NCBI RefSeq assembly: GCF_010747475.1 | Contig: NZ_VSLZ01000002.1 | Span: 124,001 to 188,000 of the forward strand | Direction: 5' to 3' | Origin: Halorussus sp. MSC15.2 | GTDB taxonomy: Archaea; Halobacteriota; Halobacteria; Halobacteriales; Haladaptataceae | DNA: 64,000 bases | Part shown: positions 5,198-14,321 of the stretch, one piece after another | How positions within the stretch are numbered: position 1 is the stretch's first letter | Layout of the letters: each line of letters opens with the position of its first letter | Made by a program: the position numbers and the translations under genes | The notes under the pieces: generated by a model | Databases searched by the model: none | What the model was told of the DNA's origin: nothing | The model's input: the letters and a program-made list of their open reading frames with translations, nothing else

Positions 5198-6898
5198 CTA
5201 CGCCAAATTAACGGTCTCCTGATAGCTCCCGTACTCGGTCTCGAACACCTGCATGATTTCGCCCATCGTCGCGTAGGCCTTCACCGCGTCGACGATGGCG
5301 GGCATCACGTTCTCGCCGTCGTCGATGGCGTCCTGCAGGTCGTCCAACGCGGTCTCGACCGCGGCGTCGTCGCGCTCCTCCTTGACCTCGGCGAGGCGGT
5401 CGAGTTGGCGCTGTTGGGTCTCCTCGTCCACCTTGAGGATGTCGGGTCGGGTGTCTTCCTCCATCTCGTACTTGTTGACGCCGACGACCGTCTCCTCGCC
5501 CGCCTCGACGCGCTCCTGATACTCGTAGGAGGCGTCCTGAATCTCTCGGTGGAAGTAGCCCTGCTCGATGCCTTCGAGGACGCCGTCGCGGACCGACCCG
5601 TCGCCCATCTCCTTTATCTCCTCGATGTAGGTCATCGCCTTCTCCTCGACCTCGTCGGTCAGGCTCTCGACGGCGAACGACCCGCCGAGCGGGTCGGCGA
5701 TGTCGGCCGCGCCCGACTCGTCGGCGATTATCTGCTGGGTGCGGAGCGCGACCCGAACGGCCTTCTCGGAGGGGAGCGCGAGCGCCTCGTCGAAGCTGTT
5801 GGTGTGGAGGCTCTGGGTGCCGCCGAGGACCCCGGCGAGCGCCTGAATCGTCACTCGGACCACGTTGTTCAGGGGCTGCTGGGCGGTCAGGCTCTGGCCC
5901 GCGGTCTGGGTGTGGAACTTGAGTTGCTTGCTGGCCTCGGCCTCGGCACCGTACCACTCGTCCATGACGTTGGCGTAGATGCGCCGGGCCGCGCGGAACT
6001 TGGCGACCTCCTCGAAGATGGAGTTGTGGGAGTTGAAGAAGAAAGAGAGTTGCGGGGCGAACTCGTCCACGTCGAGACCCCGCTCCATCACGTCCTCGAC
6101 GTAGGCGAACCCGTCGGCGAGCGTGAACGCGAGTTCCTGCACTGCGGTCGAACCGGCCTCGCGGATGTGGTAGCCCGAGATGGAGACCGGCTTGAACTTG
6201 GGGGTCTCCTCGACGGCGAACTCGATGGTGTCGGTGACGATGTCGAGGCTGGGTTCGGGCGGAATCACCCACTCCTTCTGGGCGATGAACTCCTTGAGCA
6301 TGTCGTTCTGGAGGGTGCCTCGAATCTCCTCGCGGGGGACGCCCTGTTTGTCGGCCAGCGCGATGTACATCGCGTAGATGACCGGCGCGGAGGGGTTGAT
6401 AGTGAAGGAGGTTGAGACTTCGGCGAGGTCGATGCCGTCGAACAGAATCTCCATGTCACGGAGGGTGTCCACCGCCACGCCCTCCTTGCCGACCTCGCCG
6501 TCCGAGAGGGGGTCGTCGCTGTCCTTGCCCATCAGACTCGGCATGTCGAACGCGGTAGAGAGACCGGTCTGGCCCTCGTCGATGAGGTAGTGGAAGCGCT
6601 CGTTGGTCTCCTCGGCCGTGCCGAACCCGGCGAACTGGCGCATCGTCCACGTCCGCCCGCGGTACATCGTGGGGTAGACCCCGCGGGTGTAGGGGTCCTC
6701 GCCGGGGAAGCCGAGGTCCTCCTCGTAGTCGATGTCGGCCACGTCGTCGGGGGTGTACAGCCGGTCTACTTCGAGGTTCGACACCGTGGCGAACCGGTCC
6801 TTGCGCTCGCCGTAGGCGTCGAGTACGGGACCGAGGGTCTCTTCCTCCCACTCCTCCTTCGCGTCGCGTATCTCCGCGAGGTCGTCCTCGTCGTACAT
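5198..6898 (-). CDS. mutA: methylmalonyl-CoA mutase, catalytic (large) subunit
   Basis: 566 residues from ATG 6898. The sequence follows the TIM-barrel catalytic domain of B12-dependent methylmalonyl-CoA mutase: YTRGVYPTMYRGRTWTMRQFAGFGTAEETN, GLSTAFDMPSLMGKDSDDP, PVSISGYHIREAGSTAVQEL and KFHTQTAGQSLTAQQPLNN, with GGTQSLHTNSFDEALALPS near residue 375. It ends without the B12-binding domain, as in haloarchaea where that domain is a separate small subunit (not in this window). It interconverts methylmalonyl-CoA and succinyl-CoA, used in propionate and odd-chain fatty acid use. The upstream extension of the frame is non-coding. Confidence 0.93.
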   Translation of the reverse strand: MYDEDDLAEIRDAKEEWEEETLGPVLDAYGERKDRFATVSNLEVDRLYTPDDVADIDYEEDLGFPGEDPYTRGVYPTMYRGRTWTMRQFAGFGTAEETNERFHYLIDEGQTGLSTAFDMPSLMGKDSDDPLSDGEVGKEGVAVDTLRDMEILFDGIDLAEVSTSFTINPSAPVIYAMYIALADKQGVPREEIRGTLQNDMLKEFIAQKEWVIPPEPSLDIVTDTIEFAVEETPKFKPVSISGYHIREAGSTAVQELAFTLADGFAYVEDVMERGLDVDEFAPQLSFFFNSHNSIFEEVAKFRAARRIYANVMDEWYGAEAEASKQLKFHTQTAGQSLTAQQPLNNVVRVTIQALAGVLGGTQSLHTNSFDEALALPSEKAVRVALRTQQIIADESGAADIADPLGGSFAVESLTDEVEEKAMTYIEEIKEMGDGSVRDGVLEGIEQGYFHREIQDASYEYQERVEAGEETVVGVNKYEMEEDTRPDILKVDEETQQRQLDRLAEVKEERDDAAVETALDDLQDAIDDGENVMPAIVDAVKAYATMGEIMQVFETEYGSYQETVNLA

Positions 6899-6948
6899 GC
6901 GTTCAAGTATTGCCCGAAGGATAATGAAGTTGCGTGAATCGCGGTGCT

Positions 6949-8592
6949 TCAGGCGACGCGGCGACGGCGCACGAACAGTGCGAGACCGAGGAGTAGGACC
7001 GCCGCGACTCCGTAGCTGGCGACCGTGTGCGGCGGCGCGCTCGTGACCCCGGAGTAGTCTATCGCCGTCGTCCGGTTCGCGGGACCGAGATACCACAGCA
7101 GGAGATAGCCGATTTCGAAGAGTCGCGACGACTTCGAGACGACGCCCGCGGCGAGCGCCAGCGATGGGACGAAGACGACGCCGACCGCCAGTGCGGCCAA
7201 TCGCGTTGCTTCTCCGGTCAGCGCGAGTCCGGCCGCGGCCGGGGCCACGAAGAGTACGGCGACGACGACGCCCGCCAGCCACGTCGCGGCGAGTTGCGCG
7301 ACCGGGTAGTTCGACGAGAACACCAGCGACTCGGTGCGGTAGCGGTGTTCGCGCGCACCGAGTCCCGACCAGACGAACATCGGCCACACCCACGCGACGA
7401 CGAGGAGGCCGCCGGTCGCGGCCTGGGGTCCAGCGACGAGACCGCCGCCGACGAGGACGGCCGCCCCGAGATACCAGAGCTTCGACCGGCCCCGAACCGC
7501 CATCCGGAGTTCGGCCCCGAGCAGTCGGAGCGGTCGCATCGATTGTGCGGCTCCGTCGAACTCGGGAAGATTCGCGACCGAGTCGCCGGTCGAACCGGCG
7601 GTCGCCGTCTCCTCGTCGCCGGTGGGGTCGGCCACAGAGCGGTCGTCCGCGGGCGAGTCGCCGCCGGTCGCGTCGCCGCGTCCGAGGAGCGCCGACAGTC
7701 GGGACGCACCCGGCAGGGTCGGCCCCGCGGCGGGGTCGAATCGGCGGAAGGGAACCGCCGCGATGGCGATGAGCGCGACGGCGACCGTCAGATAGGCGAC
7801 GCGGTGGACCAGCAGTTCGCGAGTCACGTCGAGACCGCTCCACCGGAAGGTTCCGACCGACCCGGCGACCTGTCCGAACACGTAGCCGCTCCCGTCGTAG
7901 GCCGGATGTTGGGCGACGAGTGCGGTCTCCATGCTCTCTTTGACCAGCGTCCCGCCGAGCGGGTCGACCGGCGACTGGACGACGAGGACGACGAGGCCGA
8001 AGAAGTAGACGACGTTCCCCAGCGACCCGCGGAGGACGGGCGTCGTCTCGAAGAGGACGGCCACCGCGGCGACCAACGCGGCGACCGGAAACGCGACGAA
8101 GACGAACGGCACGACGACGTCCGAGACGACCACGGGTCCGGTGCCCCGAAGCCAGAGGAGCGCGACGACCGACCCGGCCATGACGACCATCAGCGACGCG
8201 AGGACCGCGAGGTTGCTCGCCCATTTCCCGAAGAGGTACTCAAGGTCGCTAATCGACGACGAGGCGACGAGCTGGCCGGGACCGTCGCCTTCGTCGCGGG
8301 CGACCGCGTCTTTGACGAGGTAGAAGCCGAACACCGCCATCGCGGCGCTCGCGGTGAGCGCCATCACCGTCCCAATCCACGCGGCGTTGTAGACACCGCG
8401 ATACCGGGGGTCGCCGAGGACGAGTTGGACGTCCCCGACCGTCGTCAGGTGACCGAGATAGACGCTTGCCACGACGACGGCGAACAGTCGTCGGTCGCGG
8501 ACGCGCGCGAGGAAGTCGGCCTTGGCGACGTGGTAGCACTTCCGAAACACGTCAGACCGCTCCTCGACCTCCGAGTACCGAGAGGTACGCAT
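6949..8592 (-). CDS. ABC-2 type transporter permease, long form
   Basis: 547 residues with about 12 hydrophobic helices in two sets, separated by a charged loop near residues 290-350 (RLSALLGRGDATGG and following). The N-terminus (FRKCYHVAKADFLARVRDRR) is the usual start of ABC-2 permeases; it is followed by LVKDAVARDEGDGPGQLVASS. The start overlaps the upstream ATPase gene by 41 bases, so the two are translationally coupled and form one exporter-type ABC transporter. It is the last gene of the peptide cluster on this strand. The substrate is unknown; export of, or immunity to, the small peptides encoded upstream is an inference from position. Confidence 0.85.
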   Translation of the reverse strand: MRTSRYSEVEERSDVFRKCYHVAKADFLARVRDRRLFAVVVASVYLGHLTTVGDVQLVLGDPRYRGVYNAAWIGTVMALTASAAMAVFGFYLVKDAVARDEGDGPGQLVASSSISDLEYLFGKWASNLAVLASLMVVMAGSVVALLWLRGTGPVVVSDVVVPFVFVAFPVAALVAAVAVLFETTPVLRGSLGNVVYFFGLVVLVVQSPVDPLGGTLVKESMETALVAQHPAYDGSGYVFGQVAGSVGTFRWSGLDVTRELLVHRVAYLTVAVALIAIAAVPFRRFDPAAGPTLPGASRLSALLGRGDATGGDSPADDRSVADPTGDEETATAGSTGDSVANLPEFDGAAQSMRPLRLLGAELRMAVRGRSKLWYLGAAVLVGGGLVAGPQAATGGLLVVAWVWPMFVWSGLGAREHRYRTESLVFSSNYPVAQLAATWLAGVVVAVLFVAPAAAGLALTGEATRLAALAVGVVFVPSLALAAGVVSKSSRLFEIGYLLLWYLGPANRTTAIDYSGVTSAPPHTVASYGVAAVLLLGLALFVRRRRVA

Positions 8593-9439
8593 CTTCGAGC
8601 GACGGGTCGACCGGCGTCGCGTCGGACGCGGGCGCGGTCGGCGACACCGCGCGGACCCGTATCCCGCCGTCGCTCCGGGCGGTCTTCGTCACCGAGTACT
8701 CGGCCTTGACTGCGTCGAGGTCGTCGGTCGACACCGTCCACTGCCACACGTCGCCCTCGACCTGCTCGATTAGGCCTTCCGGTGTCGTCTGCGTCTGGAG
8801 TCGGCCCTCGTCGAGAATCACGAGGTCCGTCGCGGTCGCCTCGATGTCGGAGACGATGTGAGTCGAGAGCAACACGATTCGGTCCTCGGACAGGTCGGCG
8901 ACGACGTTCCGGAACCGGACGCGCTCCTCGGGGTCGAGACCCACCGTCGGTTCGTCCACGACCAGCAGGTCCGGGTCGTTCAACAGCGCCTGCGCGATGC
9001 CGACGCGTTGGCGCATCCCGCCCGAGTACGTCTCCAAACGTCGGTCGCGCACGTCTTCTAGGTTCGTAAGCGCGAGGAGCGCGTCGATGCGGTCGGTCGC
9101 GACGTCCGAGGGCATCCCTTTCAGCGCGGCGACGTATTCGAGGAACTCCTCGGCGGTCAGGCTGGGATAGACGCCGAAGTCCTGTGGGAGGTATCCCAAC
9201 ACCGACCGCAACTGGTCGGGGGACTCCGTCACGTCGGTTCCGTTCCACCGAATCTCACCCTTCGTCGGTTTCGTGACGGTAGTTATCATCTGCATGAGCG
9301 TCGACTTGCCGGCGCCGTTCGGCCCGAGGAGTCCGAAGACGCCCGGTTCCAACTCGATGCTCACGTCTCGAAGCCCCCATACATCGGGACCCCAACGCTT
9401 TCCAAGGTTCGAAAGGGATAGATGCATCGTTCCTTCCAT
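8552..9439 (-). CDS. ABC transporter ATP-binding protein (partner of the long permease)
   Basis: 295 residues from ATG 9439 (ATG 9427 would give 291). Walker A GPNGAGKSTLMQM sits near residue 41. The signature is YSGGMRQRVGIAQAL, Walker B is LLVVDEPTVGLD, and the H-loop is LSTHIVSD. A C-terminal extension of about 80 residues ends at GGRGAV. It is the CcmA/DrrA type, pairing with ABC-2 permeases for export, bacteriocin immunity or Cu/Na efflux. The 41-base overlap with the permease shows that the two act together. The gap to the 447-residue gene upstream is 47 bases and AT-rich, so it may be co-transcribed or have its own promoter. Confidence 0.9.
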   Translation of the reverse strand: MEGTMHLSLSNLGKRWGPDVWGLRDVSIELEPGVFGLLGPNGAGKSTLMQMITTVTKPTKGEIRWNGTDVTESPDQLRSVLGYLPQDFGVYPSLTAEEFLEYVAALKGMPSDVATDRIDALLALTNLEDVRDRRLETYSGGMRQRVGIAQALLNDPDLLVVDEPTVGLDPEERVRFRNVVADLSEDRIVLLSTHIVSDIEATATDLVILDEGRLQTQTTPEGLIEQVEGDVWQWTVSTDDLDAVKAEYSVTKTARSDGGIRVRAVSPTAPASDATPVDPSLEDAYLSVLGGRGAV

Positions 9440-9486
9440 CGATTTTATCGCGGATTGTATTTGTTGTTCATGTTTCCGTGGGTGAA

Positions 9487-10830
9487 TTACCGGTCTCGAA
9501 TCGCGTCGATGGTCTCTCGGCAGGTCTCGGTGGTCGGAGAGAGTAGTTGTTCCGCGAAGCTCTCCTCGTCGTGGTCTTCGTCCATCGAGAGATACACTCG
9601 CTTCTCGTCGGTCCAGAAGCCGAACTCGCCGTCCGGGCGTTGCTGGGCTTCGAGGAATTCGACCGCGAACTCGAAGACGTCGGGGTAGGCCGCCGCTGTC
9701 GGTGTGTCCGCGAGGTCGCGGAGTCGGTCCGCGCTCTCTCGCAGGTCGTAGTCCGCCAGCGAGTCGAACACCGCGCCGAGTTCGTAGAGGTTCTCGGCCT
9801 CCTCGTCGTAGTTGAGGTCGCGTCGGTTCTCCTCGCGGTCGATTTCGGGCCACGCCTCGCCGAGGATGCGACCCATCGACGCCGCGACCAGCGTCGGGTG
9901 ATAGTGTCGTCCCCACTTCGCGCTTTCGTCGTCCCACGTGCCCATATCTAGGTCCGTGAGTCCGTCCGACTCGGCAACCGCGCTGATGGGAAGGCCGTCG
10001 GCGGGACTCGGCACGTACCCCTCGTCCGCGACCTGTTCGAGGAGCCATCCGAGGGCGAACCGAGCGAGTCCCGGCGGGAGTTGACGCTGGAGCGCCGCGG
10101 AGTAGAGGAGTTCGCCCACTAGGTCACAGTCGTCGGCCGCGATGAAGCGCAGAAGCAGCCCGTGGAGCGTCTCGGGGTGGTCGTACGACACCGCGTCGCC
10201 GGGGAACCCGTCTCCGGGGTTCCCGAAGTTGTGGTAGAACAGGAAGTTGTGAGTCAGCGCGTACACCTCGCGCCGAGTCATCTCGACCGGATTCAGCCGA
10301 TAGCTCGCACAGCTCTGGTCCACGAGAGCGTCGAAGTCAGGCGTGTCGTACGGGACGTCGTAGCCGTACATCCGTGCGAGGTGTTGGAGGTCGAGCTTTC
10401 GGAACGGCGGGAGTTCGGTCGCCCACACCGTCTGACGGTCGAGGGTCCGGTGTAGCATCTCGCGGGCCTCGTCCGAGAGTTCGCCGTGGGTCGATGCGTA
10501 GACGAGGGGATACCCGAACTTGTGGACCTCCTGAGGGTTGCGCGCCAATAGCTGCTGGTACTCGAAGTCGTTCGACCGCTCTATCAGTAACTGCTTCAGC
10601 CGTTCTGCTCTCGGTTCGCCCTCACGCTCGGCGACGTGGAGGTAGAGCGCCGACTCGCCGAAGGCCTTGCGGCGAACGCTCCGCTGCTCGATGTCGCCCC
10701 AGTTCATCGGGTCGAACTGGTCGGCGTGGGCCTCAATCCACTCGTCCGCCCGGACCGTGAGGTCTCGAAGTTCGGACTCGAACTTCGAGGCGGGGACGGG
10801 GTCGGGCATAGGGGTCGTTTCGGCTTTCAT
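9487..10830 (-). CDS. 447-residue protein of the peptide cluster, unrecognised
   Basis: Soluble, mostly helical, rich in His, Tyr and Trp. Notable segments are QLLARNPQEVHKFGYPLVYA, DLQHLARMYGYDVPYDTPDF, NPVEMTRREVYALTHNFLF followed by YHNFGNPGDGFPGD, and near the C-terminus EFLEAQQRPDGEFGFWTDEKR. The last resembles an alpha/alpha-barrel repeat (QxxDGxFG) as in terpene-cyclase-like or lanthionine-cyclase-like folds. The TREEVYALTH-type motif recalls uncharacterised helical proteins of actinobacterial peptide clusters (possibly DUF6895), but that is memory and untested. It has no membrane helix, signal or known catalytic motif. It lies directly downstream of the two small peptide genes and upstream of an ABC pair, so a role in peptide processing or recognition is plausible. 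Confidence 0.7.
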   Translation of the reverse strand: MKAETTPMPDPVPASKFESELRDLTVRADEWIEAHADQFDPMNWGDIEQRSVRRKAFGESALYLHVAEREGEPRAERLKQLLIERSNDFEYQQLLARNPQEVHKFGYPLVYASTHGELSDEAREMLHRTLDRQTVWATELPPFRKLDLQHLARMYGYDVPYDTPDFDALVDQSCASYRLNPVEMTRREVYALTHNFLFYHNFGNPGDGFPGDAVSYDHPETLHGLLLRFIAADDCDLVGELLYSAALQRQLPPGLARFALGWLLEQVADEGYVPSPADGLPISAVAESDGLTDLDMGTWDDESAKWGRHYHPTLVAASMGRILGEAWPEIDREENRRDLNYDEEAENLYELGAVFDSLADYDLRESADRLRDLADTPTAAAYPDVFEFAVEFLEAQQRPDGEFGFWTDEKRVYLSMDEDHDEESFAEQLLSPTTETCRETIDAIRDR

Positions 10831-10852
10831 ACAACTATTCTAATACCCACAT

Positions 10853-10862
10853 CATATTTAAT
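10853..10862 (-). promoter_or_regulatory. TATA box of the 447-residue gene
   Basis: Minus-strand gattaaatatga is centred about 27 bases before ATG 10830 in a clearly AT-rich stretch. It suggests that the 447-residue gene and the following ABC pair have their own promoter, separate from the peptide genes. Confidence 0.5.
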
Positions 10863-10924
10863 CTTCGATATTTGCGAATACGTATTATGTGGAGGTCCCG
10901 CGATTCTACCCACGGAGTATCGCG

Positions 10925-10937
10925 AAAAATTTTGCGG
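10925..10937 (-). terminator. possible terminator after the peptide genes
   Basis: On the minus strand a GC-rich stretch after the second peptide gene ends in ccgcaaaatttttcgcg. The T5 run follows the stop codon by about 40 bases, as in archaeal oligo-T terminators. It would limit read-through into the 447-residue gene. Confidence 0.35.
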
Positions 10938-10969
10938 TTACGTCGCTGAAGTGCTACGAATCCGCCGGT

Positions 10970-11086
10970 TCAGTTCTTGACGTCGTAAACGTAGCTGCCA
11001 CCGACGAAGGTGTAGTCTTCGGGGTTGGTGATGGTGCTGGTCTGTGCGACTTCGGTCAGGTCACTGAGGGAGATGTTGTTACTCAT
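10970..11086 (-). CDS. small peptide B (38 aa), candidate precursor peptide
   Basis: 38 residues, ATG 11086 to TGA 10970. It begins MSNNISLSDLTEVAQTS, continues TITNPEDYTFVGG and ends SYVYDVKN. The first half is nearly identical to peptide A just upstream (SLSDLTEVAQTS in both), then TNP-x-DY is shared, and the last 12 residues diverge. It has no cysteine, no signal peptide and no membrane helix. Only 3 bases (cca) separate its ATG from the peptide A stop, so translation is coupled. Codon use (GC at third positions, acidic residues) is that of a real gene. The constant-leader, variable-core pattern suggests a ribosomal peptide precursor or a signalling peptide. A small structural protein is possible. 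Confidence 0.75.
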   Translation of the reverse strand: MSNNISLSDLTEVAQTSTITNPEDYTFVGGSYVYDVKN

Positions 11087-11089
11087 TGG

Positions 11090-11203
11090 TTAGTCCTTGA
11101 CGTAGAGCGTGTGGTTGTCGCCCGAGTAGATGTAGTCCTGCGGGTTGGTGATGCTGGTCTGTGCGACTTCGGTCAGGTCGCTGAGGGAAACGTGTTCAGA
11201 CAT
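11090..11203 (-). CDS. small peptide A (37 aa), candidate precursor peptide
   Basis: 37 residues, ATG 11203 to TAA 11090. It begins MSEHVSLSDLTEVAQTS, continues ITNPQDYIYSG and ends DNHTLYVKD. It is paralogous to peptide B, with 12 identical residues in a row in the N-terminal half and shared ITNP, DY and a C-terminal V-K-acid/amide. It has no Cys, so disulphide or lanthionine chemistry is unlikely. It is preceded by a perfect hairpin and an AT-rich promoter region. It lies between an upstream ABC exporter pair plus a 60-residue protein and a downstream 447-residue protein plus a second ABC pair, all on the same strand. Peptide export or signalling is inferred from this context only. Confidence 0.75.
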   Translation of the reverse strand: MSEHVSLSDLTEVAQTSITNPQDYIYSGDNHTLYVKD

Positions 11204-11214
11204 TGGTTGTCCAC

Positions 11215-11233
11215 GGCGGTGAGTGTCACCGCC
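11215..11233. promoter_or_regulatory. perfect hairpin/dyad just before peptide A
   Basis: The plus strand reads ggcggtga, gtg, tcaccgcc: an 8-bp perfect inverted repeat with a 3-base loop, ending 11 bases before the peptide A start codon at 11203. No T-run follows, so it is not a plain terminator. It could be an operator dyad at the transcription start, or an mRNA leader hairpin if transcription starts from the TATA-like stretch near 11272. Confidence 0.55.
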
Positions 11234-11248
11234 ATATCATTACCTGTT

Positions 11249-11289
11249 CTGTTATATGTTAAATCTTTCTGTTATAAAATATTTTATTC
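11249..11289 (-). promoter_or_regulatory. AT-rich promoter region of the peptide genes
   Basis: The minus strand carries aaaatattttataac followed by gatttaacatataac, two candidate TATA boxes in a stretch far more AT-rich than the surrounding genes. Distances of about 50 and 75 bases to the peptide A ATG mean the transcript may have a short leader containing the hairpin at 11215-11233, unlike most leaderless genes here. Confidence 0.45.
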
Positions 11290-11307
11290 ATGTGGACAGA
11301 AGAAAAC

Positions 11308-11490
11308 CTAGTCGTCGCTCTCGTCGAGAACGCGGTCTATCGGTCGCTGCCGGTCGTACTTGATTATGAACGCGCCTTTCTGGCCGTTGAACACGTACGA
11401 CCGCGAAAAGGGGATTTTCACGTGGAGTTTCTCGGTCAGACTCTTGAGCGTAACGTCGTCCGGTTCGCTCACTCGCTCCTCGTCGCTCAT
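11308..11490 (-). CDS. 60-aa protein of the peptide cluster
   Basis: 60 residues with a charged N-terminus (MSDEERVSEPDD), then VTLKSLTEKLHVKIPF, SRSYVFNGQKGAFIIKYD and a polar tail (RQRPIDRVLDESDD). The VTLKSLTE segment resembles the V/I-S-L-S-D-L-T-E leader segment of the two small peptides next to it. The middle part looks like two or three beta strands, so this may be a small peptide-binding or carrier domain, or a longer relative of the precursors. It has no signal or membrane helix. Its own AT-rich upstream region holds a 14-bp perfect palindrome. Confidence 0.65.
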   Translation of the reverse strand: MSDEERVSEPDDVTLKSLTEKLHVKIPFSRSYVFNGQKGAFIIKYDRQRPIDRVLDESDD

Positions 11491-11502
11491 TGATATATCT
11501 AT

Positions 11503-11516
11503 GTTATTATAATAAC
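11503..11516. promoter_or_regulatory. 14-bp perfect palindrome before the 60-aa gene
   Basis: GTTATTATAATAAC reads the same on both strands. It lies 13 bases before the start of the 60-residue gene, in the 44-base gap after the ABC permease gene. Nearby ttaaaattt may be the TATA box. It could be a regulator binding site; chance is possible in so AT-rich a stretch. Confidence 0.45.
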
Positions 11517-11534
11517 TTAAAATTTGCCAAAATT

Positions 11535-12329
11535 TTAGTATTCGCCCAGTACGCCTCGCTCACGCGCCGTCCGCTGGACGAACCGAAACGCGCCGTACCC
11601 GATTCCGAGGTAGACGACGCCCACGGCGACGAGGAGTCCGAGGTCAGCGGCCGGGAGCTCCAGCAGGCTCTTTTGCTGACCCATCGCCTCGCGGAGCAGG
11701 TAGCTACCGAGCGAGAACGGCGCGAACTTGAACAGCGGGAACTGCTCGACGGGAGCCGCAACGAGACCGACGAACGCGAACTGCATGAGTTGGAACGCGC
11801 TCTCGACCCGTTTGTACAGGAGGGCGAGACCGCCGAAGATGTACCCCAGTCCGACCGCGGGGGCCAGCGTCAGGACGACTATCGGGACGACGGTGAGGGG
11901 GTCGAGGCTCAGCGCGACACCGCCCGACACCACCTCCATCGTCGCGAGCATCAAGACGAGCAGCGTCGTCGAGACGAGCAGGCTCACGGCGACGTTGACC
12001 ACTGTCTTGACGCCGACGACTCGGTCGAATCCGAGCGGTGACATGTAGAGCTGTTCGAGCGTCCCCCACTGGGCTTCGTTCGTGATGTTACCTGCGATGG
12101 ACGAGTAGGCGCTCATGATGAGCATCCAGAGGAAGTATCCCACGATGATGCCGTCTATCGACTCGGTGATGGCCGCGCCAGCGACCTGTTGGCCGCCGAA
12201 GAACATGACCGCGAACAGCATGTACATGCTGACGATTTGGGCGACCGTGTTGAAGAGGTAGCGCCGCATCAGGATGAGCGACTTGAACAGCGACGCTCGC
12301 GTGAAGAGGTAGAGATGTCCCGCGCTCAT
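11535..12329 (-). CDS. ABC-2 type transporter permease (264 aa)
   Basis: 264 residues with six hydrophobic helices, the usual size for a DrrB/NodJ-like ABC-2 permease. The cytoplasmic N-terminus (RASLFKSLILMRRYLFNTVAQIV) and EAQWGTLEQLYMSPLGFDRVVG after the second helix are family features: the amphipathic coupling region faces the ATPase. Its start overlaps the ATPase stop by 4 bases (ATGA), so both are made together. Exporter type; substrate unknown. It lies directly upstream of the small-peptide genes on the same strand. Confidence 0.9.
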   Translation of the reverse strand: MSAGHLYLFTRASLFKSLILMRRYLFNTVAQIVSMYMLFAVMFFGGQQVAGAAITESIDGIIVGYFLWMLIMSAYSSIAGNITNEAQWGTLEQLYMSPLGFDRVVGVKTVVNVAVSLLVSTTLLVLMLATMEVVSGGVALSLDPLTVVPIVVLTLAPAVGLGYIFGGLALLYKRVESAFQLMQFAFVGLVAAPVEQFPLFKFAPFSLGSYLLREAMGQQKSLLELPAADLGLLVAVGVVYLGIGYGAFRFVQRTARERGVLGEY

Positions 12330-13345
12330 GCTCGGGTCTCCACCATCTCGGGCGCGTCGTCCGTTCTGGTCTCGTCGGCGCCGTCGGCGGTCACTTCGAG
12401 GAAGACCTCTTCGAGGTCGGGTTGGACGACCGACACCGACCGGGGCGTCAGGTCGAACTCCTCGAGAACGGCCATCAGGTCGTGGACCCGCTCGCGTTCG
12501 GTCATCGAAACCTCACAGACCATCCAGTCGCCGCGCTCGCGCCACTCGTTCACGTCGAACTCACGTTCGAGCGCTCGCTGCGCCGCCGTCGGAGCGTCGT
12601 CTTCGACCACGACTTCGTACGATTCGGTCTGGAACAGGTCTACGAGTTCCGAGACGGACTCGTCGGTCACGATTTCCCCGTCGTCCATGATGATGACGCG
12701 GTCACAGAGGTCCTGCACCACGTCCATGTCGTGGCTGCTCAGGATGACCGTCCGATTCTCCTGAGTAACGAGTCGGTCGAGTTCCTGCCGTAGGTCGTGA
12801 GACGCCTCCACGTCGAGTCCGAGCGTCGGTTCGTCCAGAAAGAGGACCGGCGTCTGGCGGACGAGCGCACAGGCCAGTGCAGTCTTCTGTTTCATGCCCC
12901 GCGAGAGGTTCTTGACCACCTCGTCGGCCTTGTGGTCGATGTTCAGTAATTCCAGCAACTCCTCGTGCTCCTCGCGGTGGTCTCGCGGGTCGATGCCCTG
13001 TAGCTGCGAGAAGAACGAGAGGTTCTCCTTGACTGTCAACCGCCAGTAGACGTTTCGAGCGCCTTCGAGGACGGCGCTCACTTTCCGGTAGGTCTCGCTG
13101 CTCTCGTCGTGGACGTTCACGCCATCGACTTCGACGTCACCCTCTTCTGGAAGGACGATACCGAGGATGGATTTGATGGTCGAGGTCTTTCCGGCTCCGT
13201 TCGGTCCGAGGAGTCCGACGACGGAGCCGCGTTCGACGGAGAACGACACGTCGTCGACGGCGACCACACTGCCGTCGCCGTACGTCTTTCGGAGTCCATC
13301 GACCGAGAGGACTGGATTTTCCTGTCTGTGTTCTGGTGAATCCAT
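12326..13345 (-). CDS. ABC transporter ATP-binding protein (339 aa)
   Basis: 339 residues. Walker A GPNGAGKTSTIKS is near residue 44, the signature is LSRGMKQKTALACAL, Walker B VLFLDEPTLGLD, and the H-loop SSHDMDVV. An about 120-residue C-terminal domain follows (ESYEVVVEDDAPTAAQ and onward, ending in a polar tail), as in DrrA-type ATPases of drug and peptide exporters. It is the first gene of the peptide cluster, coupled by a 4-base overlap to its permease. ATG 13345 lies 26 bases after a TATA box (aaaattttac). Confidence 0.92.
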   Translation of the reverse strand: MDSPEHRQENPVLSVDGLRKTYGDGSVVAVDDVSFSVERGSVVGLLGPNGAGKTSTIKSILGIVLPEEGDVEVDGVNVHDESSETYRKVSAVLEGARNVYWRLTVKENLSFFSQLQGIDPRDHREEHEELLELLNIDHKADEVVKNLSRGMKQKTALACALVRQTPVLFLDEPTLGLDVEASHDLRQELDRLVTQENRTVILSSHDMDVVQDLCDRVIIMDDGEIVTDESVSELVDLFQTESYEVVVEDDAPTAAQRALEREFDVNEWRERGDWMVCEVSMTERERVHDLMAVLEEFDLTPRSVSVVQPDLEEVFLEVTADGADETRTDDAPEMVETRA

Positions 13346-13370
13346 GCTTATGGAAATAGGGCAGGGACGT

Positions 13371-13380
13371 GTAAAATTTT
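13371..13380 (-). promoter_or_regulatory. TATA box heading the peptide/ABC cluster
   Basis: Minus-strand aaaattttac lies 26-35 bases before the first ABC ATPase start (13345). It is the only clear promoter before the cluster's first gene, so the ABC pair is probably transcribed from here. Confidence 0.5.
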
Positions 13381-13493
13381 CCCATCCGACCGTTCGACTC
13401 TCCAGTGAACGTCGGCGGTCGCTTCGTCACGTCGGAAAACGCAGGGCGTACGAAACTCGTCCCGACTCGACCCCGCCGCGGCAGAGAAAAGAG

Positions 13494-14321
13494 CTATTGC
13501 AATCGCTTCGTCGTCTCCACGAGGGGGTGGCGAGCGTAGTCCACGACCGTCACGTCGTCCAGCGAGTCGAGACCCTCCTTCTCGGCGGTCTTCTCCATCC
13601 CGAGTTCCACGTCCTCGTCCACGAGGATGACGTAGGCGTCCATCTCCTCGACGTCGAGTCTGTCGGCCGCCATCACGCGGTGGTGGCCGTCGGCCAGCAG
13701 GAAGTCGCCGCCGGCGCTGTTCGGCGCGGCGTCTATCACGACGAGCGGTTCGGCCAGTCCGCGTTCGAGTTCGTAGGTCCGGCCCTCCAACTCGTCGGCG
13801 TAGACCTTCCCCTGCGTCGGGGTGAGGTCGTCTAGCGGGACCTCCTTGCGGGTCTGTTCGACCTCGGTGTCGTGGATGGATTCGAGGGTCCGCATGAGTT
13901 TACCGACCTTCTCGGGCGTCGCTCGCTCTATCTGGGAGCGAATCACGTCGGTGTTGGAGATGATGCCCACGAGGTTGCCCGCGTCGTCCACCACGGGGAG
14001 TTTCTGGATGCCCGACCGGAGGATGACGCGCGCGGCGTCGTTCACGTTCATGTCGGGGTGGGCCACGATGAGGTCCTTGCTCATCACCTTGAATATCGGT
14101 TCGCGGTCGTCGGCGAGCAGGAGGTCGCGCGCGCTGACGAATCCCTCGACCCGCCGTCCGTCACAGACGGGGTAGCCGTTGTGTTCGTCGCTCTCGACGA
14201 TGCGACGCGCGACCTCGTCCACGGTGGCGTCGGGCGATACCGTCGCCACGTCGCGGGTCATGTAGTCTTTGACCTTCGGCTTGCCGTCGGCAGTCCCGCC
14301 GTCCGCTACGGCCACGTCCAT
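13494..14321 (-). CDS. CBS-domain pair fused to a ParB/sulfiredoxin-like domain
   Basis: 275 residues from ATG 14321 (the frame opens further only with TTG). Two CBS motifs follow each other: VKDYMTRDVATVSPDATVDE onward (about 18-72) and VMSKDLIVAHPDMNVNDAAR to VGIISNTDVIRSQ (about 78-135). They likely bind an adenine nucleotide. The C-terminal domain contains DFLLADGHHRVMAADRL, the G-H-H-R type motif of ParB/Srx-fold nucleotidases and kinases. Substrate and output are unknown, but the fusion suggests an adenylate-regulated enzyme or DNA-binding switch. It stands between the ABC cluster and a DHH phosphoesterase. Confidence 0.8.
   Translation of the reverse strand: MDVAVADGGTADGKPKVKDYMTRDVATVSPDATVDEVARRIVESDEHNGYPVCDGRRVEGFVSARDLLLADDREPIFKVMSKDLIVAHPDMNVNDAARVILRSGIQKLPVVDDAGNLVGIISNTDVIRSQIERATPEKVGKLMRTLESIHDTEVEQTRKEVPLDDLTPTQGKVYADELEGRTYELERGLAEPLVVIDAAPNSAGGDFLLADGHHRVMAADRLDVEEMDAYVILVDEDVELGMEKTAEKEGLDSLDDVTVVDYARHPLVETTKRLQ

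Follow-up and report, generated by a model that had tools for sequence, protein, structure and literature searches.

The window, the whole 64,000-nucleotide stretch of Halorussus sp. MSC15.2 that was analyzed, carries an accessory cluster of 6.4 kb on the minus strand. In reading order it comprises ABC ATPase 1 and permease 1 (13345-11535), orf60, peptide B, peptide A, a DUF6895 gene, and ATPase 2 and permease 2 (9427-6949). The features are as follows, L021 being a DUF6895 locus from another GTDB family.

12326-13345, minus strand: ABC ATPase 1, with relatives at DUF6895 loci
11535-12329, minus strand: ABC-2 type permease 1, with a Pfam match just below the cut-off
11308-11490, minus strand: orf60, a longer diverged peptide, VTLKSLTE ... 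SYVFNG
11215-11233, no strand assigned: inverted repeat with perfect 8-bp arms, GGCGGTGA-N3-TCACCGCC, immediately preceding peptide B
11090-11203, minus strand: peptide B, 37 aa, precursor-like, sequence MSEHVSLSDLTEVAQTSITNPQDYIYSGDNHTLYVKD, with front MSEHVSLSDLTEVAQTS and variable rear ITNPQDYIYSGDNHTLYVKD; related peptides at the corresponding place in L021
10970-11086, minus strand: peptide A, 38 aa, precursor-like, sequence MSNNISLSDLTEVAQTSTITNPEDYTFVGGSYVYDVKN, with a front shared with B and rear TITNPEDYTFVGGSYVYDVKN; three bases after B
9487-10830, minus strand: DUF6895 (PF21836) protein, 447 aa, Pfam E value 1.6e-39, a putative peptide epimerase
8552-9427, minus strand: ABC ATPase 2, with two candidate starts (9427 and 9439), 71% identity in L021
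6949-8592, minus strand: permease 2 (547 aa), unmatched in Pfam, 50% identity in L021

The two tandem mini-ORFs of the original prediction were confirmed: A and B each begin with ATG and end in a proper stop codon, with a 3-bp spacer (CCA) between the stop of B and the start of A. Their codon use is haloarchaeal as proposed, with GC3 values of 0.84 and 0.79 for B and A against 0.79-0.86 in the large neighboring genes, and cysteine is absent from both, as had been noted, and also from orf60. Searches of A, B, and orf60 against Pfam and NCBIfam returned 0 matches. A 140-aa ORF on the plus strand (10889-11311) lies antisense to A and B and is probably a side effect of codon usage.

A constant front and a variable end had also been described. 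The local alignment of A with B scored 107, while 5,000 shuffles reached at most 46, and amino acid differences numbered 3 in the first 17 codons and 11 in the other 20 aligned codons (Fisher p 0.04). This contrast, drawn from two copies, is at most suggestive of selection. However, 32 of 33 bases of the front DNA, from LSDL to QTS, are identical, and recent duplication or gene conversion thus explains the contrast as well as selection does. The selection for different ends that had been put forward is therefore plausible, two copies being insufficient as proof of it. The expectation that the frame would be conserved in relatives held, as L021 harbors two such peptides at the corresponding place; these differ from each other at 3 of 17 residues in the front and at 10 of 20 in the rear, and alignments of A and B with them gave scores reached by 0 to 10 of 5,000 shuffles. 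The interpretation of a constant front joined to a variable mature end is accordingly upheld by relatives and fits a leader and a core. The pattern typical of RiPP precursors, a conserved leader and a variable core within a short encoded peptide, was thus found, with front and rear as the putative leader and core. The original prediction overlooked orf60, the DUF6895 gene, the two ABC pairs, and the same layout elsewhere among haloarchaea and bacteria.

The product of orf60 is probably a third, diverged peptide, judging from its ungapped alignment with B over the LTE front and a Y-x-x-x-G stretch, the score of which was reached by 1 of 5,000 shuffles. It resembles A only weakly, 154 of 5,000 shuffles reaching the score of that alignment. 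A counterpart is present in L021 (6391-6570; 38% identity; E value 4e-8). The GC content falls to 16% ahead of orf60 and 37% ahead of B, against 65% for the window, and these AT-rich stretches look like separate promoters. An Rfam search over 9000-13500 gave 0 matches.

The DUF6895 protein matched its Pfam profile with 136.4 bits against a curated cut-off of 23.8, and its gene would represent the maturation-enzyme gene expected beside a RiPP precursor. Five residues (E59, H194, D236, E240, and H311 in window numbering) are invariant in all 20 archaeal and bacterial DUF6895 rows aligned. An AlphaFold model based on three sequences was all-helical and of low quality, with a mean pLDDT of 55.8, and a profile search of the PDB returned designed proteins only, at an E value of 0.13 or worse. 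In a tree of 19 rows, the window protein groups with that of L021 (support 97/91), and the two fall inside a group with the LanM-linked proteins of L022, L023, and L024 (99/97), a placement suggesting that LanM was probably gained or lost around DUF6895.

No peptidase was recognized in the cluster, and among the 8 proteins scanned there was no lasso cyclase (Asn-synthetase-like), leader peptidase, or radical SAM enzyme. Neither half of LanM was matched by tblastn in the 64-kb window, and lanthionine cannot be formed from A, B, or orf60 because they contain no cysteine. A lanthipeptide reading was dropped for the reasons given below against a lanthipeptide remnant. PADLOC matched 0 of 5 proteins, and permease 2 gave a weak match to PmtD (E value 0.017). 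ABC pairs 1 and 2 both recur at DUF6895 loci.

DUF6895 is rare in Halobacteria: a protein search detected it in 10 of 391 genomes, one match being partial, and a Pfam profile in 9 of 391; a family-level search found it in 3 of 28 genomes, adding G013. Thirteen loci were compared, with L010 kept in and L030, a partial match (86 residues; E value 2e-5), left out. Small ORFs carrying the motif [DNE]LT[EA] lie just upstream of DUF6895 in 6 of the 13: two in the window, three in L021 (two peptides and the relative of orf60), three in L009, one each in L027 and L028, and four in L029, with tandem copies in the window, L021, L009, and L029. The four in L029 (10460-10908) are 35-38 aa long and have Trp at the end. 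Fourteen of 35 small ORFs upstream of DUF6895 contain the motif, compared with 1 of the 703 in other parts of these loci; the p value of this enrichment overstates it because the motif was chosen after the loci had been seen and the peptide copies are not independent. Cysteine is absent from all motif peptides but one, an L021 peptide with two Cys residues in its extended tail. A further candidate at 5811 in L021 was dropped, as it sits within a long open frame. When a peptide profile was used to search the 391 Halobacteria genomes, the strong matches came only from the two genomes supplying the profile; 11 genomes gave matches at E values up to 0.1, the best after the two source genomes being 0.0103, and no unlinked peptide copies were found.

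Both LanM halves occur together with Cys-containing precursors in 5 of the 13 loci (L008, L010, L022, L023, and L024), as two separate stretches corresponding to the DUF4135 part and the LanC-like part; the halves were confirmed by Pfam on the L008/L004 pair. L029 has the LanM dehydratase half (5298-7304) with DUF6895 and no detected cyclase half. L025 and L026 have neither LanM nor motif peptides, which counts against the reading favored below, and L026 encodes a Cys-rich peptide. No convincing match to LarA-like residues was seen in the compared loci.

Within the genus, the genes flanking the cluster, which we take to be those for methylmalonyl-CoA mutase and a CBS-domain protein, are adjacent in 17 of 18 genomes, the exception being G016. 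The gap between them is 0.1-0.34 kb in seven genomes, and in three of these seven (G011, G019, and G021) the cluster genes were absent by tblastn. Nine of the 18 genomes have only ABC pair 1 at the site (45-84% identity), with no DUF6895 or peptide match there, and the full 6.6 kb is found at the site in the window genome alone. In the nearest genome, G012, a truncated start of ATPase 2 is fused to an apparent end of permease 2 between the same flanks (L102, 1070-1530), a deletion scar indicating that the cluster was probably lost there. Retention of ABC pair 1 without peptides is as a self-protection pump could behave; an older, independent transporter fits equally.

Nine bacterial plasmid records matched the DUF6895 queries, eight with a small same-strand ORF upstream. 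The ninth, L053, for which no small gene was counted, aligns solely to query positions 378-575, which fall outside the DUF6895 domain. Four records (Kitasatospora, two Streptomyces, and Pseudalkalibacillus) have the leader form LxxSG[LI] in common, and their small genes lie 2 to 77 bases before DUF6895. A 1,040-aa frame in L049 considered as LanM was dropped, Pfam giving no match.

By its title, an article listed as reference 371 of PMC13352647 (Shi et al., ACS Catal. 2026, doi 10.1021/acscatal.5c08590) describes a DUF6895 protein as a lasso-peptide epimerase. PMC13352647, the one paper found by a literature search for DUF6895, cites the family for lasso peptides, and no paper on an archaeal DUF6895 peptide appeared among the literature matches listed. 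Going by that title, the window shares with the lasso system the Pfam family name and a family acting on a ribosomal peptide; it differs in having no recognized lasso cyclase among the 8 proteins scanned and short, Cys-free tandem precursors, and in belonging to an archaeon. The epipeptide genes yydFGHIJ of Bacillus subtilis encode a short precursor, an epimerase, a protease, and an ABC pair postulated for immunity, although that pair proved to contribute no more than marginally to resistance (PMC7026026). The likeness to this operon lies in the short precursor, the ABC pair, and an epimerase as sole modifier, a putative role here taken from the family name. Its YydG is a radical SAM enzyme, however, while the window has DUF6895, no protease recognized in the cluster, two ABC pairs, and two peptides, or three with orf60. 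Haloarchaeal lanthipeptides of class II (PMC12144867; see also PMC10105419) also combine a leader with variable cores, and five DUF6895 loci contain LanM; unlike these, the window has no LanM match and A, B, and orf60 no cysteine. MslH, the epimerase of lasso peptide MS-271, works through two His/Asp pairs in a calcineurin-like fold (PMC10406935), making acid/base inversion plausible for DUF6895. The two would probably share C-alpha inversion by His/Asp acid-base residues and would differ in fold, the low-confidence DUF6895 model being all-helical.

The best overall explanation, which we consider probable, is that the cluster encodes RiPP precursors whose core is epimerized by DUF6895 and that the ABC pairs export the product or protect the cell. 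The ORFs and their relatives, the gene neighborhood, the conserved residues, and the pattern of gain and loss were observed directly; from these we infer the leader and core roles, the L-to-D chemistry, and the export, processing, and bioactivity of the product. A, B, and the diverged orf60 would be precursor peptides made by the ribosome; their common front, in the region of LSDLTEV, would serve as a leader read by the adjacent DUF6895 enzyme, the only candidate maturase recognized in the cluster, and the variable, tyrosine-containing rear would be the part modified. The enzyme would most likely invert at least one residue from L to D by acid/base chemistry involving the invariant His, Asp, and Glu residues. 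The product would be exported by one ABC pair, then trimmed by a protease encoded elsewhere, and would work extracellularly as an antagonist of relatives or a signal, with the other pair providing self-protection. In our judgement, it is very likely that A and B are RiPP precursors modified by DUF6895; for the modification itself we lean toward epimerization, and between antagonism and signaling we are evenly divided. A broader reading, to be held tentatively and at somewhat below even chance, is that D-amino-acid archaeal peptides of this type form a new class in which one radical-free DUF6895 epimerase, steered by an LTE-type leader, makes up the entire maturation machinery. Tandem precursors would then give several products per enzyme, and DUF6895 would be an add-on in LanM and, going by the title of Shi et al., lasso pathways.

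The same genomic evidence would be expected if A and B were RiPP precursors on which DUF6895 performs another modification (a cross-link, hydrolysis, or a backbone change) or serves as a chaperone-like partner. That DUF6895 accompanies LanM at five of the 13 haloarchaeal loci, and the dehydratase half in L029, is in keeping with such a role, as would be the unannotated LarH of the lar lanthipeptide cluster, which only raised yield (PMC12144867), if it were a DUF6895 protein. The title cited in PMC13352647 nevertheless calls one DUF6895 protein an epimerase, and we regard this alternative as unlikely. That A and B are unmodified small proteins, such as regulators or subunits of the ABC transporters, with DUF6895 acting on something else, would agree with their normal starts, stops, and GC3 and with their position between two ABC pairs. 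Small leader-type peptides go with DUF6895, however, and not with the ABC genes: in nine genomes of the genus ABC pair 1 is retained at the site with no peptide match, and bacterial DUF6895 genes are also preceded by small genes, making this distinctly improbable.

Since the DUF6895 proteins of the window and L021 group with LanM-linked ones (97/91 and 99/97), the cluster might instead be what is left of a lanthipeptide cluster after loss of LanM, with A and B decaying. The frames are nonetheless intact, duplicated, and free of cysteine, the conserved polar residues of DUF6895 are kept, and both peptides and enzyme have relatives in L021, which belongs to a different GTDB family; we give this reading very little credence. 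Chance ORFs, antisense noise, or an assembly artefact could be suspected from the very short frames and the longer 140-aa ORF on the other strand, but relatives at the corresponding place in another family leave this explanation barely credible.

If the favored reading is true, archaea make mirror-image peptides by a two-part system of a short precursor and one enzyme. The system would offer a test bed for leader-guided epimerization and a source of small D-residue peptides working at high salt. Mini-genes too short for gene-calling cut-offs, and an "unknown function" family in haloarchaea, would also gain a function.

Several minor observations were made at related loci. L010 (G000:C6:134000-153000) contains at about 9500-10825 the second DUF6895 of genome G000, which lies in two reading frames and has the two LanM halves and a pair of Cys-containing precursors as neighbors; this copy was left out of the alignments and the tree. 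S9 prolyl-oligopeptidase-type peptidases, candidates for leader removal, are encoded near DUF6895 in L025 (11088-12899) and L027 (6755-8554). On the Streptomyces and Kitasatospora plasmids L048, L050, and L051, the end of the small gene is rich in Pro and Lys, of the LLLSPPAPRPKKG type, and L048 carries two DUF6895 genes in a row.
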